64,000 nucleotides of DNA, from assembly GCA_030737835.1 (NCBI GenBank), contig JAUJYN010000026.1:1450395-1514394 (forward strand). Reading direction: 5' to 3'. Shown in pieces: positions 4,481-64,000 of the stretch. The translations under genes were made by a program, and so were the position numbers. Position 1 is the stretch's first letter. Every line of letters begins with the position of its first letter. The notes beneath the pieces were generated by a model. The model worked only from the letters and a program-made list of their open reading frames with translations. It searched no databases and was not told the DNA's origin. Source of the stretch: Acorus gramineus. Taxonomy: Eukaryota; Streptophyta; Magnoliopsida; Acorales; Acoraceae.

Positions 4481-4482
4481 CC

Positions 4483-8550: not shown

Positions 8551-9130
8551 GGCGTAACGAGGCTGCGCGACCGCTCCCCCGGCTCGATGGCGGGGTGGAG
8601 AATTATATTGACGTCCTTCCGATACTTCACGTAAGGCCGATTGCCCTTGGTGCGTTTGCCTCCGAGAGGCCTCCCGCCCTGCGGAGTGTTCTCCATGAGG
8701 TGAGCGCCTGCGCCTCTGTTCTTCGTGAAGCCATCGACCCGCTCGAGGGGTGCACGAACGCTGCCAGAACCGCTGGCTCTGATTGGAGGAAGAGGTACTT
8801 CCCTCTGACCCTTCAGCATTGACAGTCAGGGGTTGAGCCGTACAAGAGGTGGTAGCCGGATTTCTTCCTGGACTGGCTGTTGTCGATCCATGTTCGTATA
8901 GAACTGTTGCATCGAGGCTTCGATCATCTGCTGCATCGACCCTTGCAGACGGGTAAATAGAGTTTCTTGCATGGACTCCATTACCCGCCTGAGGCCCTAG
9001 ACCTGACTAGCCAAGGTTTCCGGTGAGCCATCGGCAGCCCTGGATGGGAGAACATTTTTTTTCTGTCGTCCTCATACATTGGTGTCACTCGGACCTGACA
9101 TTGCAGACACTAGCCTTTTTGTTTCGTGTC

Positions 9131-13972: not shown

Positions 13973-13977
13973 AAAGT

Positions 13978-13990
13978 TGGTATCAAAGCC
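13978..13990 (+). other. A2 primer-binding site
   Basis: TGGTATCAAAGCC lies five bases after the LTR end. It is complementary to the 3' end of plant initiator methionine tRNA, the usual primer of chromoviruses. The equivalent site in B1 is TGGTATCAGAGCC on the minus strand at 32535-32550. Confidence 0.88.
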
Positions 13991-15189: not shown

Positions 15190-15940
15190 GGTGTTGTTTT
15201 GATCTCCCCGTGGAGGTTGAAGATCAATTACCCTTGCCGCGAATCGATGATCTGTTTGACCAGCTCTGGGAGCGGGTGTCTGCTGTTAGATCGATCTTCG
15301 CACAAGGGTACCACAAGTTGGAGATCCGGGAGTTGGACATCCTGTAGATGGCCTTTCATGACCATTTCGGGCACTACGAGTTTTAAGTACTGCTGTCGGG
15401 GTTGACGAATGCGCCGGATGCCTTCGTGGATCTCAAAAGTTTTATTGGGCTTCCGTGGACTACTTTGGGGTAGTCTTCATTGAGATTGCTAGTGGTGCGA
15501 TGAAAAGGCGATATGGGTGACCTTGTTTCCCCAGGTTGGCATGCCCTCAGGCAAAGTTCGAGAATCATCATCGCGTTGGAAAGCATCAGTCCATGGAGAT
15601 TCCTCAGTGGACATGGGAGTGGGTTATCAGGGATTGTTGCGGACTCGCTAATGTCACATTCGGGTCACGACGCCGTCTAGGTGATCATTGACCGACTGAC
15701 TAAGTCCGCGCTTCCCTCCCTAATCCGACTGATTGAGTCTCTGGACGCCTTGACGTGGGTTTTCACCTTCGCGATTATTCATCTTCATGGCACTCTGGTC
15801 GGCGCTATTTTTGGTTGAGACGCGAGGGTTACTTTGAGGTTGTGGCGCAGCCTTGGCAGGCTTTGGCGCGAGCCTCCATTTAAGTATAGCGTTTCATCAC
15901 CGATGGACAGCCAGGCAAAGAGGATGATTTAGACCTTGGA
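15190..15940 (+). pseudogene. A2 chromovirus reverse transcriptase and integrase remnants
   Basis: Around 15215-15430 a decayed gypsy reverse transcriptase can be read (YPCRESMICLTS-like start, FHDHFGHYEF-like and LTNAPDAFVDL motifs). Around 15690-15940 an integrase core is recognisable (DRLTKSALPS, a later FHHRWTARQR-like stretch). Both match Tekay/Del-type chromoviruses. The region between LTRs is only about 2 kb, far shorter than a full gag-pol, so A2 could move only with proteins supplied elsewhere. Confidence 0.65.
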
Positions 15941-15946
15941 GGACAT

Positions 15947-20663: not shown

Positions 20664-20960
20664 AGACCTCATGTCTCATCGTACCTTAGACTACTCGCCT
20701 TCGAAGAGTAAGGTCGACCGACCAGACCTCATGTTTGGTCGTGCCTTAGTCTACTCGCCCTCAAGGAGTAAGGTCGACCGACCAGACTTCATGTCTCGTC
20801 TTGCCTTAGACTACTCACCCTCGAGGAGTAAGGTCGACTGACCAGACCTCATGTCTGATCGTGCCTTAAACTACTCGCCTTCGAGGAGTAAGGTCAACCG
20901 ACCAGACCTCATGTCTAGTTGTGCCTTAGACTACTCGCTCTCCAGGTGCCCGACTGCCCA
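20664..20960. repeat. Tandem array of a roughly 60-bp unit in the Tat1 LTR
   Basis: About four to five imperfect head-to-tail copies of a unit containing AAGGTCGACCGACCAGAC, CTCATGTCT and GCCTTAGACTACTCGCC. The first unit adjoins the A2 target duplication. Tat1 has several units and Tat2 has about one (near 50510-50580), so copy number varies between related LTRs, as expected for unequal exchange. Confidence 0.85.
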
Positions 20961-26600: not shown

Positions 26601-26746
26601 TAGCATGCATGACCTCCCCAACCATCCCAACAGCCCTAAAAGTCAAAAAGAAGGGGAAGAGGACTTACCAAAAGAGGGGGAATGAAAGGGGGAGATTCGG
26701 GGGCCCTCGATGCACCCGCGACCACCTCAACCACCACCACCACTAC

Positions 26747-29705
26747 TGTCACGCCCCAGGGCGGCCGTCCCCGGGACGCGGCAGGTGTATATATCATATC
26801 AGCAATCTAAACAGGAGGTCAATAATATACCCTAAACAACATCAACAATAACAACACAGACAAAAGCAGGGCTGACATGATATATACACAAATAGCAGAA
26901 GCTAAAAGACTAAATCTGTAACTCAAAGACACATTACAGACTCGATACATAATCAACTGTCCTGTGAGAGCCAATATATACAACGACATCCAAATATAAT
27001 ACAAACGTGTGCCCAAGCACAGAATACAATACATACAATCAAAAAGGGATGTTGATAGCCTCTAACACTCGCGGGAATGTGGTGCTGCTCCGCTACTGCT
27101 GAAGTCCCTCGGGGAGCCCCTCCTGCTGATCCAACTCGGATAACACTGGAGAAAAATATATATGCGAGGGGTGAGCCACACGCTCAGTGAATAGCACAAC
27201 CCATGCATCACAATTCATATTAACCACAAATAATTATTCAAAGCCTCAAAGTGGCAGGAACTACACAATCCAGTGGGTCGCTACATCGCCGACCCACTAC
27301 ACCCTCACCCTCACCCTCCAATAGGTGACATGGGCTATTGGGACTGACTAGGCTGTTAATCACCCTTGGTCCACCGATAGTCTCTCCTCCACTCCGTAGG
27401 CCGCCTGGTCTAGTCCCACAATTCAGCAATTTCCGAACCCAAATTAGGAGATGCCTACTGATGGGAGTCCTCTGTCAGGAAGGCCTGTCTAACGCTGGGG
27501 CAGTCTCTATACGGATCCAACGAAGGGAACAGAAACAGCCTATCCACACGTATACGATCCACTTGGATCCGCGGTATTCCCTTAACTGGAAAAAGAAACC
27601 TTGGGAGGGCACCATGAGGTCCCGATATAGGATATCCCGACAACCAAACAAGGAACACGGAGTACCCTAGCCCGGGTCTCAACGCTGACTTCTCAAGGCC
27701 CCTTAATCCAGAGAAGGGAGACTCTACTAATGTCATGAATTCTTCAGAATTCCTCCAGGGCGCATAACTAAGATGCGGGGAACATATATAATAACTACCA
27801 GGTTATAATACTTACTAAGGCATGCAAAAATACCATAATTTCGCATTTAATTTAATATATTAAACTAATAGGACACATGCATAGGTCAAGGCTTTCCTAG
27901 CATGAAACATGGTGTCAGGATGCATGGATCTTACACATATCCTAAGGGTGCAAGTCCCTAACATACAAGGTCTAGGGTGGCATGCATACTACATACTAAT
28001 CATGCTTGCATAGATTACATATTATACAAGTTAATATTAACTATGGTGCCCCAGGGGAGGACGGTATACGCCCAAGTGCATATAGCGTCTCCCTACTGGG
28101 TTGGATTGTCCCACTCACTAATACTCGGGTCGATGCGTGACCGTCCGTCAAGATCTACAAGACGGGTATTAAACACGGTGAGTAAAATACACAAATACAT
28201 ACAAAAATACACTAAAAATACCCAACACTCGGAAAAACGTATATACGGCCCGTACGCACTCGAGTCCGAGCACCCCGACTCACTCACGAACCCCCGGGCA
28301 GTCATACGCACGGCCACCCGCCCCGGGCGCACAGCTGCGCCCCAGCCCACATGCCCAGACGCACTGCCGAGCCCCCTTCCAGCACGCCCAGACACGCTGC
28401 CGAGCCCCCTGCCTGCACGCCCAGACACGCTGCGCGCTCGAGCGCACGCTCGCGCGCACCCGTGCGCACCGCGCGTCCAGCCCCGGGTGCACCGCACGCG
28501 CACTGCGCCCCAGCGCAGCACATTGCGCGCACACCCGCACGCACTGCGCCCCCGCGCAGTACCTCGCGCGCACGCCCGCTTGCCTCACCGCGCGCACAGC
28601 ACGCACTGTGCCTCTGCGCAGCGCTCCGCGCGCACGCCCCCGCACGGCACCCAGCACGCAGCACCCGCACACGTGCCCGCGTGCACGCCTGGCACTGCGC
28701 CCAGCGCGCAGCACCAGCACGCACGCCCGCGCGCACGCGCGCGTCCCCTGCCAGCTCGCCCGACAGCGCACCTGCCTGCCGCCTGCGCCTGCCTTCCTGC
28801 GCGCGCCGCTGAGCCCGCCTGCACCCGAGCCAACCCTAACACCTCCAACCGCCCCCAACAGCCCCCTCCAACTCCCCAACACCCATGCACACCCAAAAAC
28901 ACCTCCTAACATGCATCTAAACAAGAATGGAAGGAAAGGAAGCTCACCCAAAGGAAAGGAAGGAAGGGAAGATCGGTTGCTCTTCGGGCACCGAAACACC
29001 ACCACCAAGGTCTCCACTCAGCCAAAGAGGGGCTGAAAACAGAGGAGAAGAGGGTCCATAAGAGGAGTAAAAACAAAGGGAAATGAAGATCCAAGACCAT
29101 GGATGGATAGATCGGGTCCTCACCTATCTTTTCTTCTTCTAGGGTTTCTTCTTTCAACACCTCTAGCTAGATCATATAGTGGATTTAAAGAGAGGGGAGA
29201 GAGAGATTGAGAGGTGCAGAAGATGATGAATAGTGGGGGGAGACACTATGCTTGGGTGCCCACTTAAAGCACCCCACACACACACCTCACACACTCACCA
29301 CTTAACTTAGCCCTAATTAGGTTTAGGCTTGGTTTAGGTGATCTAAGTGCACTTTGACTTGGGTCAACTCAACCACACTAGAAAACAAAGGAGTTGACCA
29401 AGTCATGGGCCCACATTTGACCAAGTCAAGTCTCCCAATGACTTCTCGCTCGGTCAAAACCCGGATACGCTTCGGAACTGTGAAATTCTGAAATGTTACC
29501 GGAATTCGATGAAATTTTCGTGAGTGGCTTGAAATGGCACCAGGACACATAATATGCAGTTAGATTTTCAATCGGAGTCCTCAAACTCAGGATGATAGCT
29601 AAAAGTTCAAAATTTTAGCGGTTCCGATCGAAAACGAAAAAAATTGAAAAACTGCCAGAATGTTCCAATGGTTACCAGAAGGTAAAAAGTGACACATATA
29701 TAATA
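26747..29705 (-). mobile_element. B1 3' LTR
   Basis: About 2.96 kb, beginning (plus-strand left edge) TGTCACGCCCCAGGG and ending ...CACATATATAATA. It includes a CpG-dense tract at 28255-28850 and exon-like blocks in the order described for B2. The purine-rich polypurine tract of the element (TAAGGGGGG on the minus strand) adjoins it at about 29707-29720. Confidence 0.88.
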
Positions 29706-29753
29706 TTATTCCCCCCTTAGGAAATTTTATCCTCAAAATAAATACAAGAACAT

Positions 29754-31323
29754 CTAAGGAGGGAAAAGATGCGGATACGCGTCACGCATGGCGTCCTCGA
29801 GCTCCCAAGTGGCCTCGGCACCGGAACGGTGCTGCCATCGCACCTTGACCAACTGGACGGTCTTGGTGCAGAGCCTCTTCTCGCGGCGGTCCAGGATCTC
29901 GATCGGCTGCTCGACGAATAACAAGTCCGGCTCAAAGACGAGCGGCTCGAACGGGATGACGTGAGCAGGATCGTGGACGCAACGCCTCAGCTGCGAGACA
30001 TGGAGGACGCCATTGGCTTGAGCCAATTGTGGGGGCAGAGCTATGCGATAGGCCACCTCCCCAACTCGCTCGAGGATGAGGAACGGCCCAATGAAACGCG
30101 GACTCAGCTTGCTTCGCACGTCGAAACGGAAGATGCCCTTCCTCGGGCACACCTTCAGGAAGACATGGTCACCAACCTCGAAAACGAGCTCACGGTGACG
30201 ATGATCGGCGTAGCTCTTCTGACGGCTCTGAGCGACTCGGATACGCTCGCGAATCGTCTTCACCATCTCTGAGGTCTGGTGGATGATCTCCGGTCCCTCC
30301 AATTGGCGCTCTCCGACCTCGTCCCAACACAAGGGGGACCTGCAGCTGCGGCCATAGAACGCCTTGACCAAGATCTTCTGCTTCAGCTCTGCGTCGTCAG
30401 GAATGCATACTCGGCCTCTGAACCGCAGGATCCCGTCCTCACGAATCTGGTAGTCCGGACGCTCGCCCCGGGCGACGCCTTCTGAGAGGACTAGAAAGTG
30501 AGGATCCTGTCCCTGAGCCGCGCGGATTTCGTCGAGAAGAACGGGCTGCTCCACTAGCTTGGCCAAAAAGCCACCCGTAGGAGTCTCTCGAACGCTGATC
30601 CAACAAGCGGCCTCCTCCAGAAGCCTCCAACGACGTACAGCCATGTGGGCGGCCATGCCCAAGGGCTGCCTGCTGAGAGCATCCACCACGACATTTGCCT
30701 TACCAAGATGGTAAGCGATGATACAAACATAGTCCTTTAGGAACTCAAGCCAACGTCTCTGACGCATGTTGAGCTCCGGCTGGGACTGCAAATATGTCAA
30801 GCTCTTATGATCAGTAAAGAGCTCGAACTCCTCGCCATAGAGGTAATGCCTCCACATCTTCAGCGTAAAGATGATCGCTGCCAACCCGAGGTCGTGGGTG
30901 GGGTAATTCTGCCCATGGGGCTTCAACTGACGCGACGCGTAAGCCACCACCTTACCGTGCTGCATCAGGACGCAACCCACACCCCAACCGCGATGCATCA
31001 GAGTATACTGCGAACCCACCACTCCCAGACGGAAGGGTAAGAACTGGCGCTGAGGTGAGCCTTCGCTTCAACTCCAGGAAGCTCTCCTCGCAAGACGGGG
31101 ACCACTCGAACCGAACATCCTTCCGAGTGAGGCGGGTAAGAGGTACGGCTATCTTCGAGAAACCCTTGTCAAACCTTCTATAATAACCCGCCATGCCCAG
31201 GAAGTTTCGAATCTCTGTGGGGTTCGACGGCCGACGCCAATTAGACACGGCGAGCGTCTTGTCCGGGGCCACAGATATTCCCTCGCCGGAAATCACGTGG
31301 CCCAGAAGGACGATAAGCTCCAA
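29754..31323 (-). pseudogene. B1 pol: reverse transcriptase/RNase H part and integrase-chromodomain tail
   Basis: From right to left the frames show LLGHVISGEGISVAPDKT and FLGMAGYYRRF (reverse transcriptase end). RNase H follows with [30 protein letters not shown] and DALSRQ. Then comes the integrase C-terminal part ([47 protein letters not shown]). The end, [19 protein letters not shown], is a chromodomain-like tail, which identifies a Tekay/Del-type chromovirus. In such elements this tail is thought to guide integration to heterochromatin. The pol region is incomplete. Confidence 0.88.
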
Positions 31324-31329
31324 CCAGAA

Positions 31330-32040
31330 CTCACACTTAATCCACCATCAATTTGATGCTTCCAAGGTATTCCTTGACTGGGAAAAGAAAAGAAACGTTG
31401 GGAGGGCACCATGAGGTCCCGATATAGGATATCCCGACAACCAAACAAGGAACACGGAGTACCCTAGCCCGGGTCTCAACGCTGACCTCGCAAGGCCCCT
31501 TAATCCAGAAAAGGAACACTAGAAGAAGACATCACCCTTAAAGAACACTACCAACTCTACTGGAAACCCATGCTCCGAAATCAAATAACACACAATCAGT
31601 TCCCTTTTTCAAGGAAAAACATGGGTAGAAACCCAATGATCACTGGGTCACGCGGCGGCGTGACCAACCTCACCCCCACCCTCACTCCCGAAAGGAGTCT
31701 TTTGGGACTTATGGGGAGAGACTTAGACTGCTCTACACCCCTGGTCCACCGGTAGCCTCTCCCCGCTCCGTAGCTTACCTGGTATACTCCCACGATTCAG
31801 CACAGTCCGAAACCAAATCAGGAGGTGCCTACTGATGGGAGCCCTCTGTCAGGATAGCCTGTCTAACGCCGGGGATGTCACTGCACGGCTCCAACGAAGG
31901 GGAGAACGATCCCATGTTCGCCAAGCGAAACCCAATGGAAAACAATCACTCTCGATACTCGCTCAGCGAGATATCACCCACATGCATAACAACAACCAAC
32001 ACACTCATATATATAGGGAGCTGGGAAATCAAAACAATAC
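31330..32040 (-). repeat. LTR-like block inside the B1 internal region
   Basis: About 700 bp here resemble LTR interiors of families A and B. A GGGAGGGCACCATGAGG stretch matches 27600-27640 and, on the opposite strand, A2 near 14480-14510. The CTCACCC-rich part and the GGTCCACCGGTAGCC part match 1060-1080. It lies between gag and pol, where no LTR belongs. I infer a rearranged or captured LTR segment. Confidence 0.65.
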
Positions 32041-32041
32041 C

Positions 32042-32479
32042 TCAGACCATGATACCCGAAGCCTGCTCCTCCTCGGCCGAAAGCGCTGCAACTCTGCCCT
32101 GGACAAACTGTGGCTGAGGAGCAGGGGGTACATCTGGTACCACTGGCGGATCTGCCATCAAGGGGACCTGTGGAGCTGCATCACGGGCCACCCTCAGCTC
32201 CTGAATCTCTCTAGCCTGCACAGTTAACACCCCCGACTGGGCCTCTAATGATCTGGTCTGAGTCTCCACCAGATCTGCTATCCGAGCGAAAGCACGCTCC
32301 CATGCAGGAGGCTCCTGTGCCAATCCTGCCCCCACAGCCGAGGACTCTCCAGTAGCATCCTCACCTCTGGTAGGTCCGGGAACCTCCAAAAGGTCGAGAG
32401 GGACCACGTCCACGCATTCCTCTGTGAGGAGGCATATCAGCAACTCAAGAAAACAAGACACAAGGATCCGAATACTCAT
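32042..32479 (-). pseudogene. B1 gag N-terminal region
   Basis: A 145-codon frame contains a low-complexity N-terminal stretch, then AFARIADLVETQTRSLEAQSGVLTVQAREIQELR (coiled-coil-like) and a proline-rich part. This layout, 80 bp downstream of the primer-binding site, fits the start of a chromovirus gag. The capsid core and zinc knuckle were not found in the internal region. Confidence 0.6.
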
Positions 32480-32534
32480 ATAGGAATCCTAGGACTCATC
32501 TCTACGAAAATGAAGACCATTGGCTCTGACAGGA

Positions 32535-32550
32535 CCAGGCTCTGATACCA
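32535..32550 (-). other. B1 primer-binding site
   Basis: On the minus strand it reads TGGTATCAGAGCCTGG, five bases after the LTR end at 32556. It is complementary to the 3' end of initiator methionine tRNA. Confidence 0.92.
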
Positions 32551-32555
32551 ACCTT

Positions 32556-35386
32556 TGTCACGCCCCAGGGCGGCCGTCCCCAGGACGTGGCAAGTGTATA
32601 TATGACATCAGCAGTCTAACCAGGAGGTCAATAATATACCCTAAACAACATCAACAATAACAACACAGACAAAAGCAGGGCTGACATGATATATACACAA
32701 ATAGCGAAAGCTAAAAGACTGAGTATGTAACTCAAAGACACATTACAGACTCGATACATAATCAACTGTCCTGTGAGAGCCAATATATACAACGACATCC
32801 AAATATAATACAAACGTGTGCCCAAGCACAGAATACAATACATACAATCAAAAAGGGATGCTGATAGCCTCTAACACTCGTGGGATGGCGCTGCTCCGCT
32901 ACTGGTGAAATCCCTCAGGGAGCTCCTTCTGTTGATCCGATTCAGATAACACTGGAGAAAAATATATATGCGAGGGGTGAGCCACACGCTCAGTGAATAG
33001 CACAACCCATGCATCACAATTCATATTAACCACAATTAATTATTCAAAGCCTCAAAGTGGCAGGAACTACACAATCCAGTGGGTCGCTACATCGCCGACC
33101 CACCACACCCTCACCCTCACCCTCCAATAGGTGACATGGGCTATTGGGACTGACTAGGCTGTTAATCACCCTTGGTCCACCGATAGTCTCTCCTCCACTC
33201 CGTAGGCCGCCTGGTCCACTCCCACAATTCAGCACAGTCCGAACCCAAATCAGGAGGTGCCTACTGATGGGAGTCCTCTGTCAGGAAGGCCTGTCTAACG
33301 CTGGGGCAGTCTCTATACGGATCCAATGAAGGGAACAGAAACAGCCTATCCACACGTATACGATCCACTTGGATCCGCGGTATTCCCTTAACTGGAAAAA
33401 GAAACCTTGGGAGGGCACCATGAGGTCCCGATATAGGATATCCTGACAACCTATCGAGGAACACGGAGTACCCTGGCCCGGGTCTCAACGGTGACTTCGC
33501 AAGGCCCCTTAATCCAGAGAAGGGAGACTCTACTAATGTCATGAATTCTTCATAATTCCTCCAGAGCGCATAACTAAGATGCGGGGAACATATATAATAA
33601 CCACCAGGTTATAATACTTACTAAGGCATGCAAAAATACCATAAGTTCGCATTTAATTTAATAAATTAAACTAATAGGACACATGCATAGGTCGAGGCTT
33701 TCCTAGCATGAAACATGGTGTCAGGATGCATGGCTCTTACACATATCCTAAGGGTGCAAGTCCCTAACATACAAGGTCTAGGGTGGCATGCATACTACAT
33801 ACTAATCATGCTTGCATAGATTACATATTTTACAAGTTAATATTAACTATGGTGCCCCAGGGGAGGACGGTATATGCCCAAGTGCATATAGCGTCTCCCT
33901 ACTGGGTTGGATTGTCCCACTCACTAATACTCGGGTCGATGTGTGACCGTCCATCAAGATCTGCAAGACAGGGTATTAAACACGGTGAGTAAAATACACA
34001 AATACATACAACAATACACTAAAAATACCCAACACTCGGACAAACGTACATACGACCCGTACGCACGCGAGTCCGAGCACCCCGACTCACTCCCGAACCC
34101 CCGGGCAGCCATACACACGGCCACCCACCCCGGGCGCACAGCCGCGCCCTAGCCCGCGCGCCCAGACGCACTGCCGAGCCCCCGCCCGCACGCCCAAACA
34201 CGCTGTCGAGCCCCCTGCCCGCACGCCAAGACACGCTGCGCGCTCGAGCGCACGCCCGCTCGCCTCACCGCGTGCACAGCACGCACTGCGCCTCTGCGCA
34301 GCGCTCCGTGCGCATGCCCCCGCACGACGTGCTAGCGCGCAGCACCCGCACGCGTGCCCGCGCGCAAGCCCGGCACTGCGCCCAGCGCGCACGCCCGCGC
34401 GCACGCCCGCGACCCCTGCCAGCTCCCCCGATAGCGCACCTTCCTGCCGCCTACGCCTGCCTGCCTGCGCTCGCCGCTGAGCCCGCATGCACCCGAGCCA
34501 ACCCTAACACCTCCAACCGCCCCCATCAGCCCCCTCCAACTCCCCAACAGCCATGCACACCCAAAAACACCTCCTAAACATGCATCTAAACAAGAATGGA
34601 AGGAAAGGAAGCTTACCCTAGGAGAGGAAGAGAAGGGAAGGAGATCGGGTGCTCTTCGCGCACCGAAACACCACCTCCAAGACCACCACCACCAAGTACT
34701 CCACTCAGCCAAAGAGGGGCTGAAAACAGAGGAGAAGAGGGTCCATTAGAGGAGGAAAAACAAAGGGAAATGAAGATCCAAGACCATGGATGGATAGATC
34801 GGGTCCTTACCTATCCTTTCTCCTTCTAGGGCTTCTTGATTCAACACCTCTAGCTAGATCAAAAGGGGTTTTTAAAGAGAGGGGAGAGAGAGCTTTTGGT
34901 GGAGAAGATGATGAATAGGGGAGGGGGACACTATGCTTGGGCGCCCACTTAAAGCACCCCACACACACACCTCACACACTCACCACTCACTTAACTTAGC
35001 ACTAATTAGGTTTAGGTTAGGTTTAGGGGCACTTTGACTTGGGTCAACCCAACCACACTAGAAAACAAAAGAGTTGACCAAGTCATGGGCCCACATTTGA
35101 CCAAGTCAAGTCTCCCAATGACTTCTCGCTCGGTCAAAACCCGGATACGCTTCAGAACTGTGAAATTCTGAAACGTTACCGGAATTCGACGAAATTTTCG
35201 TGAGTGGATTGAAATGGTACCAGGACACATAATATGAAGTTAGATTTTCAATCGGAGTCCTCAAACTCAGGATGATAGCTAAAAGTCTAAAATTTTAGCG
35301 GTTCCGATCGAAAACGAAAAAAGTTGAAAAACTGCCAGAAATGTCCCAAGGGTGACCAGAAGGCTAAAAGTGACACATATATAACA
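32556..35386 (-). mobile_element. B1 5' LTR
   Basis: About 2.83 kb with plus-strand edges TGTCACGCCCC and ...ATATATAACA. Exon-like blocks on the minus strand are 34617-34719 (103 nt; acceptor TGTTTTCAG, donor GTAAGC) and 33925-33960 (36 nt; acceptor GTCTTGCAG, donor GTGAGT). A further donor (ATAG|GTAAGG) lies near 34810. The CpG-dense tract is at 34060-34500, between the two blocks. It is slightly shorter than the 3' LTR, mostly in the CpG tract. Confidence 0.9.
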
Positions 35387-36191
35387 ACTACCACCACCTC
35401 CACAGCCCTCCTCAGCCTCCTTATTGGCTGAAAAACAGAGGAGAGAAGGGCATAAAAAGGGAGCTAGAGAGAGGGGAATCAACAACAACAACAAAGGCAC
35501 AAAACTCACCTTCATGCACTTGCACCTCCTCTTCTTGCTCCATCTTCTTCTCCTTGGCATAAAATCAAACACTTGGGGAGCAAGAAGAGCCATAAGAGAG
35601 GGAGGGAAAGTGTTCCACGAAATGGGAGAGAGGGGGAGAGAGAGAGAGGGCAAAAAAGTCATTTTCATGCCCAAATAGTGCCTAGGGGTGACCATAAGGG
35701 GGGTGAGGTTAGGGTTAGGCTCATCCACTCACAAATCAAATAACCAATGGTTTCTTCATCCCCAAGCAAGGTGGGGATAAGGTTACCAAGGGTCACCACA
35801 TCCCCAAAATATCTCACACTATTCGACCAACCAGGAACTCTCAAAACCCGGATACGGTTTGGAACTGCATATTTTTCAAAACGTTACCGGAATTCGATAA
35901 AAATTTTATGGGTAGTACTAAACAGTACCAGGACCCATAATATGCAGTTAGATTTTGAATCAGAGTACTCCAACTCCCGCAGGTGGCTAAAAGCCAAAAT
36001 TTTAGCGACTCCGATCGAAAAAGAAAAAGGCCCTGAATGACCCAGATGCGACCAAGGCTTAACCAAAATGGCTCCAAATGACACAGGCATAACACAAACC
36101 CTAATAATATTTTGGTTCATTCCCTTCAATTCATGATTCTAACATAAGTCTTCATAATAGACTTATTCACCCCTCTTTTAAGTCTGTATAT

Positions 36192-39565: not shown

Positions 39566-40020
39566 AAGGGATTTTTATTTTTAAGTACCTATAAACAAGC
39601 TTATTTAGGGATCGGTCCCTCACTTCTTCATATTTCTTTTTTAGTTCCCATATTCAACCGCCTATTTGGTTTTTAGTCCCTCCGTCAAACGTCCGTCCAT
39701 ACACCGTTAATTTGTGAAATGTGATTTTATTTTTAAGTCCCTATAAACTATGTTATTTAGTTATCAGTCCTTGTAAACTATGTTATTTAGTGATTAGTCC
39801 CTGTAAAATATGAAGAAGGAGGGACTAATCACTAAATAACATAGTTTATAGGGACTTAAAAATAAATCACATTTCACAAATTAACGGTGTATGGACGGAC
39901 GTTTGACGGAGGGACTAAAAACCAAATAGGCGGTTGAATATGGGGACTAAAAAAGAAAAAGAAGAAGTGAGGGACCAATCCCTAAATAAGCATGTTTACA
40001 GGGACTTAAAAATAAAAATT
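39566..40020. mobile_element. Foldback Mutator-type MITE with 9-bp target duplication
   Basis: A 455-bp near-palindrome. The left arm (39566-39800) is repeated in inverse on the right (39815-40020), so nearly the whole element can fold into one stem. The direct repeat ctttcaaaa (39557-39565 and 40021-40029) is 9 bp, the hallmark of Mutator-like elements. Each arm includes GGGACTTAAAAATAAA and CGTCCGTCCATACACCG motifs. There is no coding capacity. Arms this complete suggest a young copy. Confidence 0.88.
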
Positions 40021-42570: not shown

Positions 42571-43934
42571 AATAAATTGAACTTCGCTGTAATACTGTTG
42601 TTGGGAAACGAAATCGTAGAAGCCATCAACACAAGAACACAAGATATACGTGGTTTGGCCTAGGCCTATGTTGAAGAAAAAATCTGCACCCTATTAAAAG
42701 ACGACATATGTCTAGGCTTAGACGGGTATGGGCCACCATATTTGACACCTAAGGACCCAAACCTAGTAGTGGAATACTGAGCAGGCAGTCCCAAGCAGGT
42801 GAGACACAACTAGATTGGCCCCTCATTGAAATAAGCCAAGTCTAGTCGAACAGTCTTACACCTCACGGGTGAATGCCATCCCAAACAGGTGTGACATGAA
42901 TAGATTGAATCAAGTCTGAACTGTATTACATCTCGCGAACGAATGACTGGGTACAGCCGAGCAGGACTCTATGTACCGACTAGATCAAGACCACGAGGAG
43001 AACCTCGGAAACGGTCAGGCACCCATAACGCCTGTAACTGTCAGATGAATGATTAAGGCTATTACTCATAAAACGTGGGTAATTAAGGGCACGTTCAGCT
43101 ACAATAAAGCAGAGCGGTTATCACAAAATTCACCCACTGCCATTAAGGGAGAGTTGTTACAACAGATATGGGGTTAGTGACAATGGCTATCTAGCCCATG
43201 AATCCTATAAAAGGGAAGGTTAACAGCAAATTGAGATATGAGTTAACTTTGATGCAAGCCACTTAATTAGTGAGATAAGACTTTCGAATTCCCTTACTGA
43301 TACATCTATTCGGCATTCCCTTGGCTGGCACCACACCGGTGCCATCTTGATTTCTTTTTTAGTGTAGGATTCATATTCAACCGGGTTCAGATTCGAGAGA
43401 GTTGCTCCTGTTATGTCTGTGTCATTTGGAGCCATTTCGGTTAAGCCTTGGTCACATCTGGGTCATTCAGGGCCTTTTTTTTTTTTTCGATTGGAGTCGC
43501 TAAAATTTTGGCTTTTACCGAATCGCATCTAGGTTTGGCCGTTACTGGGATTCGGGAAATGAGATATTTTTTGAGTGTGTGGTGCTTCTCTGCACGCTTT
43601 CCAATAAAGCAAAAATAAGTGGTTGAGTGAGGGTGAACCTAACCCTAACCTCACCACCCTCTTATGGTCACCCCTAGACACTATTTGAGCATGAAAATAA
43701 CATTTTTGCCCTCTCTCTCTCTCCCCTTCTCTCCCATTTCGTGGAACACCTTCTCTCCCTCTCTTGGTCTCTTTTTTTCCCCCTCTTTGTGTGTGGAGAA
43801 GGAGGAGGAAGAAGCAAATGAAGGAGAAGGTGAAGAAGGAAGCACAAGAAGGTGAGTTTTGTGTATGTGTTGTTGTTGTTGTGGTTTCTCCTCTCTCAAG
43901 CTCCCTCTCATTCCCCCCCCCCCCTGTTTTTCAG

Positions 43935-44041
43935 CCAAAGAAAGCTGAGGAGAGGCTGTGGAGGTGATGGTAGTGGTGGTTGAGGTGGCCGCGGGTGCAT
44001 CGAGGGCCCCCAAATCTCCCCCTTTCATTCCCCCTCCCTTG
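43935..44041 (+). other. Exon-like block beta in A4
   Basis: A 107-nt block starting after the acceptor CTGTTTTTCAG and ending at the donor G|GTGAGC. The same block with the same boundaries occurs in A1, A2, A3, B1 (34617-34719, 103 nt) and B2 (62385-62489, 105 nt), although the surrounding sequence is hardly alignable between families A and B. It shows no conserved reading frame that I can see. I infer an untranslated leader exon. Confidence 0.6.
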
Positions 44042-44586
44042 GTGAGCTCTTCCCCTTCTTTTCTTTGGTTTTTCATGGCTTTAAGGGTTGTTGGGAAGTC
44101 ATGCATGCTAAGTAGTTGGTTTAGGGTGAGTGAGGAATGTGAGGGAGGGGTTAAAGGGGTTAAAGGGTGCTGGGCGCGCGGGTGGGTCTGTCCGCGCGCA
44201 TGGGAGCGCACAGAAGGGCACAGGCGGGTGCATAGGCGGGGGCGTGCGCGTGCGCGCGGGTGTGCGTGGAGCGAGTGATCGGGTTCGCGCGGACACTGGC
44301 AGCGCGCGCGATGCACGCGGGTTGTGCATGCGAGTGCGCGAGGGGCAGCGTGTCTGGGTGCGCTTGGGCATGCGGCAGGGCACCAGTGCGCATGTGCGCG
44401 TGCGTGCGCGTGCGGGGCTGCCAGGGGCTCAGGTAGGTGCTGGGGCACTTGGGCATGCGTGCGTACGTGCGTGCTCGCATGCGTGCGAGCCCGTATGCGT
44501 GCATGTCTAAGTCTTTGGTATTTCTAGTAATTTCTAAGTGTTATAATATGATGTTACTCACCAAATTTGATGCCCTTATCTTGCAG

Positions 44587-44623
44587 ATCTGGTCGGATGG
44601 GATGCGTGAGGTCCCGGGTTGCG
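44587..44623 (+). other. Exon-like block gamma in A4
   Basis: A 37-nt block after the acceptor TATCTTGCAG and before the donor GCG|GTGAGT. Counterparts of 36 nt occur in B1 (33925-33960), B2 (63070-63105) and the diverged A2 variant (18194-18229). All begin ATCT and contain a GG-rich middle. A block this short, bounded by good splice signals in every copy, is hard to explain by chance. Confidence 0.6.
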
Positions 44624-44702
44624 GTGAGTGGTTTGATCCAACCCCTCGAGATGCGCTCGACGCGCATAGTCATGCGTCGCACATCGATGGGACACCCTAG
44701 CT

Positions 44703-44728
44703 ATACTACTTGTGTAGATAAGTAGTAT
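44703..44728. repeat. Small perfect hairpin conserved in family A LTRs
   Basis: ATACTACTT and AAGTAGTAT are separated by 8 bases. The same hairpin is present in A1 (about 2370), A2 (about 11020 and 18320) and A3 (about 25970), always 60-120 bases from exon-like block gamma. Confidence 0.75.
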
Positions 44729-47428
44729 GGCCATCCTTAAACTATAATATGTTAGATATCTTGCATGCTAGGCTTATATTGCATGCATTGTATCCGTGTA
44801 TGGATGTATAGAATATGGCATGCCTTAGGTAGTATTGTAATACTACTCCCACCATATTAATTGGAATATCCAACATGATTAAGTCTGGGTTAATAATGGG
44901 AACCTGCCTAATATTCCCTTGCGATAAGACTCGAGGGCGTGGTGTAGTTGTTGCGCCCATGCTAATGGGGCAAAGCTATGACCAACTTCAAGAGATGATG
45001 ATCTCTCTCTCGCCCTCTCCCTCTGCACGAACTGAGTAAGTAGAGGCGATTTCCTATTCGACTCGGGGGAATATTGGCTTATTGGCAATATTGGCATGCA
45101 CCTATTAGTGCGCGAGATCGCGCTTGACCCTTCCCTTTTAAGTTGGTGATATCCAATGCATGCTTAAGTTATGCCTTGTGTGCTTATGTGATTAATGGTC
45201 ATGTATGCATGTTGTATGATTTATTGTTTATGATGTAAATCCATGTTAGGGGTCACCCTTATGGTCAATTATTAGATGATTGTGCATATGGTCCATGCAC
45301 ATAGCTATGATATGATTCTCCTAGATATATATATGCGCATGTTAAAACTTATTAGGCCTATCTGAAATAGGCGTGGGTATGACCCGTTGTCGGGTTGTAC
45401 CTTATTAGTTAGAGCGCTAGCGATGTAATCGCCCCCGTGCATCCGAGGGGTGCACTCGTTCGGAATTCAGGAGAATTCATTATCTTATCAGTTTTGTTAA
45501 GCCGGTAGTTGTGTTATTAAGCTAGGCCTACCCGTGCTAGGCGTGTATATGAACCGCCTGTTGGGTTATGTTCCTTGGGATTATTTCTGCGTGAGAGCAG
45601 AGGCAACCCCCTTGTGTCCGAGCGACGCAACCGTGTGGGAGTACAATAGTATTCGATATCATCGATATGTGATTATCGAGAGTAGTTGTTTTTTCATTGG
45701 GTTTGCTTTGCGAACATGGAGTGTTTCCTCCCAATGTCGTCCGTGTTGAAGCGGCCTGGGTTGTAGCTGTCCTGACAGAGGGCCCCCACCTGTAGGTACT
45801 ATCGATGCATGCGGCAAGATGTACTAATCATGGGGGTATACCAGGTAGAGGCTACCCGGAAGAGGGCTAACGAATGATATTGCGAGCGTGGAATCGTTCT
45901 CCCCTTCGTTGGATTCGTGTAGGAACTCCTCGGCGTTGGAAAAGCTTTCCTGGCAGAGGGGCTTCCATCCGTAGGTACTACCGATGTGTTCGGGAGCGTA
46001 CTGATCGTGGGAGTATACCAGGTAGAGACTACCCGGGGAAAGGGCTACCAGTGGACCAAGGGTGTAGAGGAGTCTAATCTCTCCAAAAGTCCTATGTCAC
46101 CTCTAAAGGGTGAGGGTGAGGATGAGGTGAAGACACGTCGCCGCGTGACCCATTCGTTGTTCGTCCGTTCCCATAGTTGTTGGGTCCAATTGCGTATCGA
46201 TGTTCAAAGACATCGTTGGGCAATTATCTCGATGTAGATGATCCAGTAGTGTTGTGTAGACCAGTAATTCCGGGTCTCTTCGACCAACGGTATGGTCTCT
46301 CCCCAAGAGTCCCAAGAGTCTCCCTCCGGGAGTGAGGGTGAGGGTGAGGTTGGTGATCCAGTAGTGTTGTGTGGACCAGTAATTCCGCGTCTCTTCGACC
46401 AACGGTATGGTCTCTCCCCAAAAGTCCCAAGAGTCTTCCTCCGGGAGTGAGGGTGAGGGTGAGGGTGAGGTTGGTCGCGCCGCCGCGTGACCTTGTTATC
46501 CATTGGGTTTCTACCCATGTTTTCCTTGAAAGGAAATTGCCTTAACATTGAACTGTTGTAATGGTGATTGGTTTCCAGCCACTCACTGAGCTTGTAGCTC
46601 ACCCCTCGCATACTGTTTCTTTTCAGGGGCAGTGTTGGGCGTGGAGCTGGAGCTTCCCTGTGGCGTGGTCTTATGTGCGTGGAGCGTTCTATCCAGTGGG
46701 TGGCGAGTGCAAGGTTGTCAGCAGTCCTAGAGTCATTTTATGTATTGTAAATCATGCATATGGCACATGTTGTATTTTATTTGGACTAGACTTGGCTCTC
46801 ACAGGACAGTAATTGTGTATTCGAGTCTGTAATAATGTTTTTGGTTTACAGACATTGTTGATATCTTATGCTTCCGCTTTTCAGTTGAGTTATCAGTTAT
46901 CATTGGTTTGCCAGCTTGTGTATTGTTTATTGGAGTCATTATTGATCTCTTGTACTTGATAGCTAATATTTCATTATTGCCACGTCTCGGGGATGGCCGC
47001 CCTGGGGTGTGACAGCTCCATCAGTTTATTTTGATTGAAGGGAAAAAATATCTCTTAGCTTATATTGACGAGGCGAAAACAGAGAATCTACTATAATAGT
47101 TGAGATACAAAAAATATATTAAGACTCACAAACTCTCTCATGAGTTACCATGTCTTAGAACCCTCTCAACCTCAGTCTAGGATCTCTATATTGTATCATG
47201 CCAAGTTTTACCATGTAACCCTAGAGGATATTTATATATATAAATAACTTCTTCTCAAATTAATCTTCTAATTAACAAATAAATATTGTTTCCTAATTTT
47301 AGGAGATTCACTTTAAATATTAATTAAAATTAAATCTTAATTAATATATACCAATTAGATGCTTACCCTAATATGGTTTCATCATAATCATCTGAAGTGA
47401 TAAACCAGATCGAGATCTAATCCTAACA

Positions 47429-51078: not shown

Positions 51079-52640
51079 ATGTCTGATCCAAATGACACCC
51101 CTTTCGAAAGACAACAAAGTCGAGTTGACGTCCCACCAAGTGTTGCCATCAACAATTCACCCGGGGCCATGATCAGTCAGGCCCAAGATCTCCGGCAGGT
51201 GGTGGAATCCACACAGAAAACACTCCTCACCCGCCTCTAGGGATCCATGAAACAAATGATTGAAACATCGATGCAACAGTTCTACGCCAACCAGCATCTG
51301 CAACTTCCTGTTCAATAGGGCGTCCTGCCGCCACCCCCGGCACAGCCCAATCCGCCAACCAACGCCGTGCATAATTCGGAAGGAAGCACCTCTTCCTCGA
51401 ATCGTAGGCAACAGAGCCGTCGACGTTCACGCTCCCCTCGAGCTAGCCAACGGGTTCATGAGGAACTAAGGCACAGACGTTCCCCACGCCGGGAACGTTC
51501 CACCCGGAGGGAAGCATTGTGGAGGCCGGCGCATCAAGAAAGATTGGCCTTCAGCGAAACATCCGGCGGATGCCAGGGCAATCCCCTGTAGCAAACAGAG
51601 GGAGCCGTCGTGTAGCCCCGCCACAACCTACGTTCGGAGGTGTGGCGAGCCCGAGATCACGGGATGGTAGAGCACGCATTACGGGGCTTCGCCTCTCCGT
51701 TTTGCCCAGCCATCCTCAGAGAACGACTTCCACGGAAGTTTGTTCAGCCCAAGTTCAAGCTGTACAATGGCACGTTGGACCCTTACGACCATATTTTTGT
51801 GTTCCGTCACTCCATGGCATTGTACGAGCTATATGACGGGCTGATGTGCTGCCTCTTCCCATCCAACCTAGAAGGGGCCGCCCTCACTTGGTTCCACCTT
51901 CTAACGCCTGCGGCGATCCAAACTTTCGAAGAGATCGGCACAATGTTTGCCGAGCACTTCATCTGCAGTAGGCAAAGGAAGAAAGACCTTGGAGATCTCA
52001 TGAAGATCCAAATGCAACAGAGAGAATCGATTTGTCAATATGTCGATCGATTTCGTATCCTGAAGTTCGAAGTAGAAGACTGCAATGAGGACGCTGCAGT
52101 CATGGCCTTTCGCAATGGACTTCCAGCTGGCAATAGCCTGAAGGAATCGCTCATCAAGCGCACTTCTTCCTATTTGCGTGATCTAATGGGGTGTGCTGAA
52201 AAGTACGCAAAGGTGGAAGAGGAGTCTAAGCTCCTCAAGCAAGTAATGGCGGCATCCCGCTCTTTGCCGACTGCCACCACTCCCGCACCGGCAACTAAAC
52301 GCTCGACGGAATCCTGTCAGAAGGACCGACGAGGTGACAAGGACAAGAAGCAGGGCACCTCAACGAATGCGGTGCGAGAGGGATAGGGGACATTCTTTAA
52401 AATCCCACCATCCCAAATTCTGCCCAAAATTCAGAGTCAGCAATGGTTCAGGTGGCCTGAGCCAATGAAGAGTGATGAGTCAAAGTGGGACCAGTCTCTC
52501 TGTTGCGACTATCACAAAAGCGTAGGGCACACGACCGATCAGTGTCGCATTTTTCGAGGATTCCTGGAAGAACATGTCTGGAAGGGTCGCCTAAAGGAAT
52601 ATGTACCCTCCGAGAAGACCCAAGCTGCAGAGGAGTAGCA
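51079..52640 (+). pseudogene. Tat2 gag
   Basis: The gag starts near MSDPNDTPFERQ (51079), passes an arginine/serine-rich part, and has the main gag domain at 51640-52386: KLYNGTLDPYDHIFVFRHSM, LEGAALTWFHLL, FAEHFICSRQRKKDLGDLM and NGLPAGNSLKESL. Near 52500-52560 CDYHKSVGHTTDQC forms a zinc-knuckle-like motif. The domain is nearly the same as that of Tat1. Confidence 0.86.
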
Positions 52641-53399: not shown

Positions 53400-54420
53400 G
53401 ATAGGGTTCTGGAAGACCTAGAGGAGGTCCCCATAGACCCTATTGACCCCGAGAAATTCTTTTTCGTCGGGAGTTTACTGTTAGCCGAGGAAAGAAAGGC
53501 GATACTTGACCTCCTTGTCAAAAACAAGGATGTCTTTGCCTGGAAACCTCGCGACATGTCGGGGATTGACCCCGAGGTCGCAAACCACCGGTTGTTCATT
53601 TCGCCCACCATTCACCCAGTTCGGCAGAAGCAGCGGTGAATGGCCTTGGCACATGCAGAAGCAGTACGAGACGAGGTGAATAGATTCTTGGTCGCCTGGT
53701 TCATCCGCGAAGTGCGACATCCCGACTAGCTGGCCAACACCGTGGTGGTTCCAAAGAAGAACAAGAAGTTGCGGGTGTGCGTAGACTTCACAGACTTGAA
53801 CAGCGTGTGCCTGAAGGACAACTTCCCACTGCCAAAGATCAATCAGCTGGTGGACTCCTCATCGGGTAATGAACTAATGAGTTTTATGGATGCTTATTCA
53901 GGCTACCACCAAATCCCATTGTACGAGCCTGACCAAGAAAAAACCGCATTTATAACCCCCACCGATATTTACTGTTATAAAGTAATGCCATTCGGGTTGA
54001 AAAATGCCAGGGCTACCTATCAGAGGTTGGTCACGAAGATCTTCTAGCACCAGATCAGGATAACTGTAGAAGTCTATATTGATGACATGATGGTCAAGAG
54101 CAAGTGCAGAGCTGACCATCTGTCCCATTTGAAAGAGGTCTTCACTGTGTTACGCAAATACCGGCTCAAATTAAAAGCAACAAAGTGCTCCTTCGGAGTC
54201 ACCTCGGGAAAGTTTTTGGGGTATTTGACGACTCAACGAGAAATCGAAGCCAACCCCGATCAGATCAAAGCAATCATGGAGATGGAGCCTCCGCAGAACA
54301 AGAAGGAGGTGCAGAAGCTTACTTATATGTTGTCTGTGTTTTGGCGAGTAAAAAGCGCCTCAGTCGTTGCTTGGCAAGCGCTTTCCAGGTCGTCTTCAAG
54401 AAGGCAACCCCTGAGTTGAG
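53400..54420 (+). pseudogene. Tat2 reverse transcriptase
   Basis: Motifs in order: VVPKKNKKLRVCVDFTDLN, FPLPKINQLVDSSSGNELMSFMDAYSGYHQIPL, YKVMPFGLKNARATYQRL, then YIDDMMVKSK, which holds the catalytic aspartates, and SGKFLGYL. It is less decayed than the Tat1 copy. The downstream pol domains are missing. Confidence 0.86.
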
Positions 54421-54422
54421 CA

Positions 54423-56892
54423 CAAGCAACCTCCTTGTTGGTGCGCCCAACAAAGGTACTAGCCGAAGGAGCCGCTGCAGAAGCCCTGACAAGCATAGCC
54501 CCACTGGCTAATGTAACCCCTGGGGAGGCCAAGTTCGGAGTATTGACTGCTGCGGAAGGAATGGCCTCTGAGGCCAAGACAAAAGGAACCTCCGAGCGAG
54601 AGGGTTCTGAAGGAACAGCCGCGGTCTGAATGACCGAGGACACTATCAGAGACGGCGAGATGGAGGATGGAGTCTCCACCATAACGGCTGGGGGCACCCC
54701 CGAGGGAACTTCTGGAGGGGACGCAACCCCCATCGCCGCGACTGGGCTTGAGCCAGGTACTACCATCAAGGGAGGCACCACCTTGACTGCCTCGATTGAT
54801 GACAACTCAGCTCTTGCCAAGTCGACTACCGAGATGGAGGACTCGATCACCTCAACTTCAGGAGATAGCGGAACCACTACCGCGTCTAGAGATTTGCTAG
54901 CGGTAGCACTCGACGGGCTTCCCGGTCCGCTAGAGGTCGGGGCAAACCCCGATCCTTGACCACCAGCTGCATTCGCAGGAGGCCCACTTGGACCCCCAGA
55001 AGGGAGAGTCGAAGGTGTGCCAAGTGTGGCGACCGCCCCCTCTCCTGTCTCATCCCCCTGGACTGAAGATTCAGGGCGAGGCGTTTTAGACCTTTGTTTT
55101 GAAGGAAGCGGCAATCTGGGCCTCTTCCTTGAAACAAAGGCAAACTTGGCTTTGAGGGCAGCGAGCTGTCTAGCCACCTCCTCGTTCACAACGGGAGAAG
55201 AAGCAGAAGGAGCGTCGAGGCTTAATGATGTGCCAGCGACCACCGAGGAAGAGCCAGCGGCCCAAGAACCTGGAGGGCTAAGAATTTTGTGGAAATCTTT
55301 ATCCTCCACTTCTTGGGTGCGAGCAATCTGATCAAACTTCACCACTGAAGGATCCGGAGTTGCTTGCTCAAGGTCATCTGACAAGAAATAAAGAAACTCT
55401 TCAGGTCTCGATGATGAAGGGAACGATCTAAAAGGGCACTCACTCTTATGCTTACCCAATTTCATCGAACGAAGACAATGGGGCACCTTCGGCCCACCAT
55501 GCGGTCCGTAGGTAGAAAATTCCCAAGGACCGGTCAGCTGTACAAGACACTTCTCCCTCCACCCACTGTCGGACGAAGGGAGCTTCTCCACGAGAGGGGT
55601 TATGTCTTTTCTGGCCCGGAGATAGAAAGCATGCTGCTTTCCTCAGGTCATACAGATGGTAGATGTCGTCTACCCTGAGTTCGAGGTGCAGCGAACGGTT
55701 GATGGTGAGAACGCCCATCAGAACCCTCAACAGGTTAGGAGAACATTGTGTCGAGTGAAGCTTAAACTGACACATGAAGTACTTAACTAGTTGGGGGAGA
55801 GGAAGGGAAAGAGAACTTCACAGCATTTGAGAGTGATACATATATAGCCCATCAAGGTTCTGATGCTTCATGAGATCGAAGAACTTCTCTTGTGTATGCG
55901 TGATTGTGATGGAATGAGGGATTGACAAAGAAGATCTCAGTCTATGAACGATGTTCGTTGACATGGCGATGCGAGAAGAAAAACGATTGGAGGCAAGGTT
56001 TGAAAGCAAGGAGGGGATTTGATTTTTGAATTCTCTCTCTCTCCTCTTCTCAGCGAGTGATGACTACATTAAGGGGATGGTTCTCCCTCAATAACTTTCC
56101 GCAATCATGGTAAGGGCGTGAAAATCAAGATCGTGGAAGATTTACCGCCAAAATCTTCTACAGAAATCGAGGAATAGCTAGCACGGAGACGAGGCGTCAG
56201 TTTCAACTGATGTGCAGCTTACATGGAAAGTTTACGATATTTCTATCTCTAACTTCCCACTTGGCCTCATGAAAGGACAGATCGGCGGGAAGGTCGTTAC
56301 GACCAGATGGATGCATCCAGGGGCATCCTGGCCAAGGGCATGACACGAGGCATCTTTACTCGTTTCATGCAGAGTAGCCTATTCGCCTAGTGCGGGCAAT
56401 TTGCGGTTGAAGTCGAGACAACTTAGCTTTGAAGCACTAAGGTGGGAAAAGCATACAGCGAGGAAGATATCCTATGTTCTTTAAAGACTTCGCTAAACGA
56501 CACGAGTACATAAGACAAGAAAGAGCAAGGTTGACCCAAAAAGTAATTTTTTATTCATTCGATTGGATAAAGATTACACACAAAAAAAAAGATATACATG
56601 CTCAACCCTATGTCCTGTTCTCTGCTCGGCCCTTCCCACGAGACCTCCTCTCCCGTGCGGCACAGTGAAGTATGGGCAGCTCCTCGTTGCTCATCTCTCC
56701 AAAACGACATGAGTGGTCAACGTAGCCCAAGCGGTAGCCGCTGATGAAGTAGAAGTCCAGAAGATGAACCTCTTCATCACCCTCGCAAGCTTCATGAAGA
56801 AACCGCAGTTGTTGATCTATGGAGAGGACGACTACATGAGCTGAGGCTTGCAAGTTCCTGGATGGATCGTCGTTAGGGAGATTGACACCCAC
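54423..56892 (-). CDS. Antisense ORF region of Tat2, one long open frame
   Basis: Downstream of pol, on the opposite strand, open frames cover 54423-55591 (about 390 codons, part of a 422-codon frame that overlaps the pol end), 55452-55775 and 56608-56892. The first contains GWREKCLVQLTGPWEFSTYGPHGGPKVP and then a long Ser/Pro/Ala/Val-rich part. The second has QCSPNLLRVLMGVL and LELRVDDIYHLYDLRK. This resembles the putative gypsy-type transposon domain family found in antisense ORFs of Tat-lineage elements such as maize Grande and Retand. Function unknown. The long open frame despite a broken pol is notable. I make no claim that it is expressed. Confidence 0.6.
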
Positions 56893-62384: not shown

Positions 62385-62489
62385 CCATCTTTAGGCCTTG
62401 CTAGAGGCTGAGGTGGTGGTGGTCTTGGTGGTGGCGATTCGGTGCGCGAAGGGCACCCGAGTTCCTCCCTTTGTTCTTCCTCCTTTTGG
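62385..62489 (+). other. Exon-like block beta in B2
   Basis: 105 nt between the acceptor CCCTATTTTCAG and the donor TTGG|GTAAGT. It begins with CCATCTTTAGG and passes a GGTGGTGGT repeat, as in family A, which also has GGTGGTGG-type repeats in this block. Confidence 0.6.
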
Positions 62490-63069: not shown

Positions 63070-63105
63070 ATCTTGACGGACGGTCACGCAACGACTCGGG
63101 TTTCG
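63070..63105 (+). other. Exon-like block gamma in B2
   Basis: 36 nt between the acceptor CTGTCGTGCAG and the donor TTTCG|GTGAGT. It starts ATCTTGACGG, where A4 starts ATCTGGTCGG. Confidence 0.6.
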
Positions 63106-64000
63106 GTGAGTGGAACAATCCAACCCAGTAGGGAGGCGTTTGATGCACGTAGGCATTCATTGCCCTCCCCTGGGGCACCATAATTGCATATTAACTAGTA
63201 ATCAATGTAAACTATGCTATGCATGAATTAATATGATGTATCCATGCCACCTTAGACTTGTATGCTAGGGATATGCACCCATATATCATGTATAGAGGCC
63301 TATGCATGCCTAGTCACCATGTCCCCTGATTGGAAAGCCCCGAACTATGCATGTTTCCATCTAGTTTAATCTAATTAAATCAAAATGAGAGCATATAGTT
63401 ATAAGCATGCCTTAGAGAATATTATAACCTTGTTGTTATAATATATGTCTCCCCGCATCTGAGTTATGCGCCCTGGAGGAATTCTTGAGAATTCATGACA
63501 TTAGTAGAGTTACAATCGGTGTCGACGGATCCAAGAGGATCGTGTCCGTGTGAGTAGGCTGTCTTCTCCTTTTGGTTGGATCCGATGTAGGGACTCCCCG
63601 GCGTTGGCTGACCTGACAGAGGGCTCCCGTCCGTAGGTACCTCCGATGTGTCGGACAGTACTAATAGTGGGAGTGGACTAGGTGGAGGCTACGAGGGTGG
63701 GAGAGGCTACCGGGTGGACCAGGGGTGGAGAGCGGTCTAGTATGCCCCAAGAGGCCCATGTCACCCCCAGTAAAGGGTGAGGGTGAGGGGGGGAGGTGGG
63801 TTGGCGATGAAACGACCCACTAGAATGTGTTGTTGCTCCCGTTTTTAGGGGCTATGAATTTATATAAGGTTAATATGAATTGTGATGCATGGGTTGTGCT
63901 ATTCACTGAGCGTGTGGCTCACCCCTCGCATTTCTTTTCTTCTAGTTATATCTGAGTCGGATCTGAATGAGGAGCTCCCTGAGGTACCACAGCAGTAGCG

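Follow-up and report, generated by a model that had tools for sequence, protein, structure and literature searches.

Spliced leader introns in the long terminal repeats of two retrotransposon families of Acorus gramineus

Can a retrotransposon keep introns in the part of its long terminal repeat (LTR) that is copied through RNA? Such introns should vanish whenever a spliced RNA is the template, and their persistence through repeated RNA copying is a puzzle. The question is raised by a 64,000-nucleotide stretch of Acorus gramineus DNA (assembly GCA_030737835.1, contig JAUJYN010000026.1, positions 1,450,395 to 1,514,394 of the forward strand), here called the window, which is a 64-kb nest of LTR retroelements carrying copies of two LTR families, A and B. 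A sequence-only reading had proposed that transcripts of both families are spliced within the LTR at three introns, leaving a short untranslated leader before the primer-binding site (PBS). Introns 1 and 2 of this proposal are borne out in both families by genomic copies that lack them, whereas the third intron is not.

The exon blocks and splice signals proposed for the family A solo LTR A4 and for the family B copies B1 and B2 were read directly in the DNA, and all lie at the proposed coordinates (Table 1). The further claim that the signals are consensus-like in every copy did not hold: donor 1 of A1 is broken (GGGGAGT), and the AG of the third acceptor is lost in A2 and in 6 of 34 aligned copies. 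What the two families have in common is the order of the parts and the splice sites, not the identity of the exons. Indeed, conserved exons were discarded as an argument, as identity between A4 and B1 is 58/102 in exon 2, 38/83 in intron 1 and 317/530 in intron 2; a coding reading of exon 2 was likewise rejected, its length varying from 101 to 119 across copies and falling in all three frames. About 25 nucleotides (nt) before acceptor 2, both families have the motif TACTCAC (44555-44561 in A4, 33985-33991 in B1), which is near the consensus of a branch point.

LTR copies lacking introns 1 and 2

An LTR newly made by reverse transcription of a spliced RNA should be exactly without the introns. 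We searched the genome (398.6 Mb) for family A copies in which exon 2 is joined to exon 3, using a 22-base pattern with up to 3 mismatches and the reversed pattern as control. The joined junction gave 60 raw matches (6 exact and 17 with one mismatch) against 2 in the control, while the unspliced border, probed with the same design, gave 1541 against 3; the estimated sensitivities were 0.95 and 0.94, respectively. Matches with the intron erased thus amount to about 4% of the unspliced ones in family A, with 24 of the 60 read, and because intron-bearing matches dominate, we infer that unspliced RNA is the usual template.

In 22 of the 24 loci read (L061-L084) an LTR copy aligns on both sides and has 0 bases between exon 2 and exon 3; the other two aligned on one side only (L067) or not at all (L084). 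Intron-bearing copies have 275-818 bases at the same place, with one outlier of 1290. Intron 1 is also missing in 18 of these 22 processed copies, with a one-base uncertainty in L071; of the remaining four, L076 is ambiguous, another LTR interrupts L083, and the intron is retained in L079 and L082. These last two have a dead or a weak splice site: L079 reads TTTTCTGCC at acceptor 1 instead of ...CAGCC (TG for AG), and L082 has the weak donor AAG/GTTTGT, intron 2 being gone in both. Such natural mutants are predicted by spliceosomal removal and not by chance deletion, although the blocking of removal by a dead site was seen in one copy only (L079). The same acceptor 1 mutation, CTGC or CTGT instead of CAGC, marks a subfamily (L015, L022, L045 and L079), a natural intron 1 retention mutant.

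The exon 1 ends of the processed copies fall into several types. Three of them (GCACAAGAAG, GAGCAAG and GCAAGAG) also directly precede GT in intron-bearing copies; the other types have no matching source copy among those read, and L072 and L075 apparently used a donor shifted downstream, again with no source copy among those read. L061-L063 still have U3 ahead of the spliced leader, as rebuilding of the LTR by strand transfer would predict. Of the 23 loci L061-L083, 22 have retained donor 3, and the sequence past exon 3 continues in the processed copies. Skipping of exon 2, searched genome-wide as an exon 1/exon 3 junction with one exon 1 type only, gave 0 matches.

In family B the joined exon 2/exon 3 pattern also matches the intron end CTTGCAG and gave 1465 raw matches; counted among the best 100 listed, at least 15 have 0-1 mismatch, none of which ends in the intron AG. 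The one such locus that was read, L085, is without both introns, position 34811 of B1 being joined to 34719 and 34617 to 33960, with exon 2 retained. A 185-base query from L085 listed 40 places, 7 of which, including L085 itself, cross at least one exon joint. Judged from the listing alone, C58:609613 crosses the exon 2/exon 3 joint on the same strand as L085, 5.35 kb further on and at 97%, so the two (604266-604450 and 609613-609794 of contig 58) are likely an LTR pair; on the same basis C82:431599, C55:1447312 and C3:31553454 cross this joint (the last two starting at query bases 25 and 22), C3:1606749 has it alone, starting from query base 50, and C78:416894 crosses only the joint of exon 1 and exon 2. 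The other 33 places are exon 2 alone (query bases 50-155), ending at the exon borders, many of them with a separate piece of exon 1 upstream.

Taken as reverse-transcribed records, these copies demonstrate that LTR transcripts were spliced from exon 1 to exon 2 to exon 3 in vivo and that the spliced RNA served as a template for reverse transcription, introns 1 and 2 having been removed exactly, in the manner of spliceosomal U2-type introns. Both introns have GT-AG borders, except in those copies or subfamilies where a site is dead, weak or shifted, chiefly donor 1 of family A.

Conservation of the splice sites

The A4 LTR has 15 donor-like sites against 8.6 in shuffled sequences, so that the motif pattern alone is not far above chance and another kind of test was needed. 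Base conservation was counted in family A over 34-58 aligned copies per site, most of them fetched because they resemble 43852-44041, a choice that gives a slight advantage to the sites between donor 1 and the end of exon 2. The GT of donor 2 is present as G in 51/51 and T in 50/51 copies, the AG of acceptor 2 as A in 56/56 and G in 54/56, and the AG of acceptor 1 in 53/58 and 58/58, respectively; at acceptor 3 the A is found in 34/34 and the G in 28/34. The GT of donor 3 is present in 57/58 and 58/58, each base of its GTGAGT being kept in 57-58 of 58 copies, while donor 1 is variable. Ranked among all hexamers of the LTR (depth 33-51 copies), donor 3 lies at percentile 97.8, followed by acceptor 2 (81), acceptor 1 (69), donor 2 (53), acceptor 3 (43) and donor 1 (20).

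For family B the counts were made wherever B1 probes matched in the window or in the fetched loci, and a few of these places may be A copies. There the splice sites are near invariant and the adjacent exon letters vary: GT of donor 1 in 20/20, CAG of acceptor 1 in 20/20, GT of donor 2 in 27/28, AG of acceptor 2 in 27/27 and GTGAGT of donor 3 in 26/26. The conservation of GT and AG that had been expected is therefore clear in family B and mixed in family A, where only donor 3 stands out strongly; together with the motif counts, the mixed outcome in family A led us to reject conservation alone as proof; what decides the matter is the set of copies without introns.

Donor 3, rival explanations and related elements

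The sequence-only reading had drawn a third intron from donor 3 to 46626, leaving a short leader that still holds the PBS. Its acceptor is a good one (CTTTTCAG), with the A of the AG in all 34 family A copies and a similar acceptor in B1. However, the G is lost in 6 of the 34, no copy without the segment 44624-46626 was met among the processed copies, and the joined junction of exon 3 to 46627 gave 0 matches genome-wide in family A with a 28-base pattern (estimated sensitivity 0.71) and 0 for its equivalent in family B, for which the sensitivity is without an estimate. A shorter 20-base pattern gave 186 matches against 101 in the control, none with fewer than 2 mismatches; of the best 100 of these most were background or the normal end of the segment, and a few places with 2 mismatches, unread, could be junctions. 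Moreover, the LTR part of the leader that would remain after removal of three introns still has 7-8 ATG. We consider a three-intron leader of this kind unlikely, and nothing supports the proposed third intron in RNA used as a template for reverse transcription. Within the segment, one stretch (45882-46152 in A4; 31644-31921 and 63564-63788 in family B) is about 77% common to A and B, and it is also found within the internal region of B1.

Donor 3 itself, the best conserved of the splice-type sites, fits either splicing past the PBS to an acceptor before gag, or a binding site for the U1 small nuclear ribonucleoprotein that blocks early polyadenylation. The second possibility, in which donor 3 would not be spliced at all and would suppress polyadenylation in the 5' LTR in the manner of foamy viruses, agrees with the very strong conservation of GTGAGT and with the lack of any processed junction from donor 3 among those found; in the parts of PMC3694450 available, the foamy virus donor lies in R and U1 binding there suppresses 5' LTR polyadenylation. 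On the other hand, the U1 role would leave the AUG-poor exons of family B unexplained, which makes it possible but doubtful. Splicing from donor 3 to an acceptor just before gag is the most likely use of the site; it would yield an mRNA for translation only. Acceptor-like AGs immediately precede what is presumed to be the gag AUG, both in B1 (where the site reads TTTTCTTGAG/TTGCTGAT) and in A-type elements.

Two other explanations concern the introns as a whole. The intron-less LTRs might have arisen by ordinary deletion, or they might be ancestral and the introns a later addition, and some processed copies do branch off close to the base of a tree that is midpoint-rooted and has weak support. 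Against this, many copies that differ in their subfamily letters have joints at the splice borders of both introns, families A and B lack the same pair, intron 1 is retained where its splice site is dead or weak, and it is implausible that A and B each gained introns at the same places; we find this account hardly credible. Alternatively, the LTRs could have captured the promoter and leader of a host gene, the exons then deriving from a host transcript and having no function in the element. The CT-rich leader and first-intron layout read in the A4 sequence do resemble those of host genes, but the architecture is common to two diverged families with more than 1000 raw pattern matches each, and the processed forms are LTRs with U3, so that we regard a captured host leader as very unlikely.

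With high confidence, then, the observations are best explained by LTRs in which a promoter lies ahead of a non-coding leader that contains two spliceosomal introns; donor 3 would be used in a separate class of mRNA. In both families the DNA shows that transcripts begun in the LTR lost two genuine introns in the cell, and that some of them, once spliced, were reverse transcribed and inserted as LTRs without introns 1 and 2. Leader introns raise expression in plants, and introns 1 and 2 may act in this way and help export. In the other mRNA class donor 3 would be joined, most likely, to the acceptor just before the gag AUG, removing U5 and the PBS, so that the RNA could be translated and not reverse transcribed. 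This would explain why no genomic copy without the third segment came to light, and also why exons 1-3 of family B are nearly free of AUG: 3 in 2607 nt against 16.8 expected, with 136 against 91 expected in introns 1-2, counted in 9 copies (the B1 5' LTR, B2 and those 7 of the 12 fetched B loci that were parsed; the B1 3' LTR and 5 loci were left out). Exon 2 of family A is AUG-poor as well (2 in 4332 nt, 39 copies). More tentatively, and with somewhat less than even confidence, we propose a switch of three steps in which the two leader introns are removed early and donor 3 sets the fate of the RNA, as AUG-poor mRNA for translation only or as unspliced genome, the introns persisting because intron-less progeny would be expressed less well.

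Several results weigh against this picture. The splicing is read from genomic DNA, and in family A conservation is unremarkable at donor 1, donor 2 and acceptor 3. A search for the joined exon 3-gag junction gave 8 matches, all in unspliced context; the model predicts this outcome, but it is no positive evidence. Exons 1 and 3 of family A are not AUG-poor, and of the 90 ATGs that A4 has from 43700 to 47014, only 17 are lost with introns 1 and 2, so these two introns alone do not clear the leader. Finally, not all of the processed copies are independent of one another. A tree built from exon 2 plus the exon 3 region, with shorter rows dropped, holds 49 rows, 14 being processed copies, and is weakly resolved; its Fitch count was 6 changes, while shuffling gave 12.3 on average (range 7-14). 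They probably arose more than once, many with shared ancestry, as far as a tree with weak support can indicate.

Among known systems, the foamy viruses (spumaviruses) have their splice acceptors outside the LTR. The two complete introns found here, with donors and acceptors, lie inside it, and host and family are unrelated. The likeness is in the donor: the available text of PMC3694450 places the major splice donor in R of the LTR, that is, inside the transcribed part and hence at both RNA ends. Ogre, of the Tat lineage, is also a plant Ty3/gypsy element with partly spliced transcripts; in the portion of PMC6317226 at hand its intron lies between gag-pro and the reverse transcriptase, RNase H and integrase region, thus between coding regions and not in a non-coding LTR leader. 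BARE1, EVADE and the sunflower elements Tyran and Varan yield spliced and unspliced RNA of one element, with Gag made from the spliced form in BARE1 and EVADE, and the sections available of these papers locate no intron in the LTR (PMC3735527, PMC12786077, PMC7730604); a review among them describes plant LTR elements as generally without introns, excepting Ogre and EVADE. The terms "splic" and "intron" do not occur in PMC3059260, on plant centromeric elements, and none of the literature matches listed, in which subscription papers are mostly outside coverage, describes complete introns within a plant LTR. Spliced RNA is thus already known from plant elements, whose introns lie within coding regions or between them, and the introns of the LTR leader are the new part as far as the accessible text of these sources goes. 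They provide a natural record, in DNA only, of splicing in vivo and of the choice of template, and make the separation of the RNA for translation from the RNA for replication directly testable in a retroelement. If the LTR promoters work, the many scattered LTRs would be ready-made promoters with splice-competent leaders.

Elements in the window

Families A and B appear to be two related del/Tekay-like Ty3/gypsy families, judging from the PBS and the domain matches of B1; an iMet-type PBS and long LTRs are features of this clade. The hallmarks of LTR retrotransposons are present: TG...CA ends, target-site duplications (TSDs) GCTCC, GTAGT and AGACC, a PBS immediately 3' of the 5' LTR in A2 and B1 (of the iMet type) and, in B1 only, pol domains. 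In its pol fragment B1 has matches to reverse-transcriptase RNase H and to an SH3 domain like that of Tf2-1, a likeness to the del/Tekay chromoviruses of PMC6317226, whose available part leaves leader introns unmentioned. B1 has two LTRs and a shortened internal region; in family A, none of the three internal regions seen (A2, L016 and L047) holds a long frame, and that of the A2/A3 element is only about 2 kb.

Table 1. Leader features and LTR elements of families A and B (window positions; a slash marks an exon border)
Feature	Position	Strand	Remarks
A4 exon 1	43700-43851	+	CT-rich, then purine-rich; left edge arbitrary
A4 intron 1	43852-43934	+	AAG/GTGAGT...TTTTTCAG/CC
A4 exon 2	43935-44041	+	read as non-coding
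A4 intron 2	44042-44586	+	TTG/GTGAGC...CTTGCAG/ATC
A4 exon 3	44587-44623	+	followed by GCG/GTGAGT
A4 donor 3	44624-44629	+	GTGAGT
A4 proposed intron 3	44624-46626	+	acceptor CTTTTCAG/GGG
B1 intron 1	34720-34810	-	GTAAGG...TTTTCAG; sites conserved
B1 exon 2	34617-34719	-	read in sequence
B1 intron 2	33961-34616	-	GTAAGC...CTTGCAG; joined junction also outside L085
B1 exon 3	33925-33960	-	followed by donor 3 GTGAGTGG
B2 exon 2	62385-62489	+	donor 1 at 62294
B2 exon 3	63070-63105	+	followed by donor 3 GTGAGTGG
A1 and surrounding Tat-like element	95-3809 and 3964-9006	-	A1 is a solo LTR of family A, inside integrase gene of the Tat-like element
A2 and A3	9662-20663		two LTRs of one family A element; TSD AGACC
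A4	43409-47014	+	solo LTR, family A; TGTTATG...GTGACA; 5-bp TSD GCTCC on both sides
A5	23761-36096		family A LTR interrupted by B1 (26747-35386), which sits in A5 exon 2 with TSD GTAGT
B1 5' LTR	32556-35386	-	followed by PBS TGGTATCAGAGC
B1 3' LTR	26747-29705	-
B1 presumed gag start codon	32433-32435	-	121 nt past LTR end, counted from sequence; presumed from reading frame

The Tat-like element that hosts A1 contains pieces of gag, RNase H and integrase (Pfam), and a second such gag lies at 51616-52386 (+). The end of the LTR is duplicated in A2 (13345-13972), and directly after the 3' end of A3 there is a 60-bp tandem repeat of 4.8 copies (20660-20946). Elsewhere in the window, an open frame of 439 codons (54323-55642, -) has no Pfam match at E 0.001, and at 39571-40019 a stretch of about 450 bases agrees at 89% with its own reverse complement, as a fold-back type element or a hairpin would.

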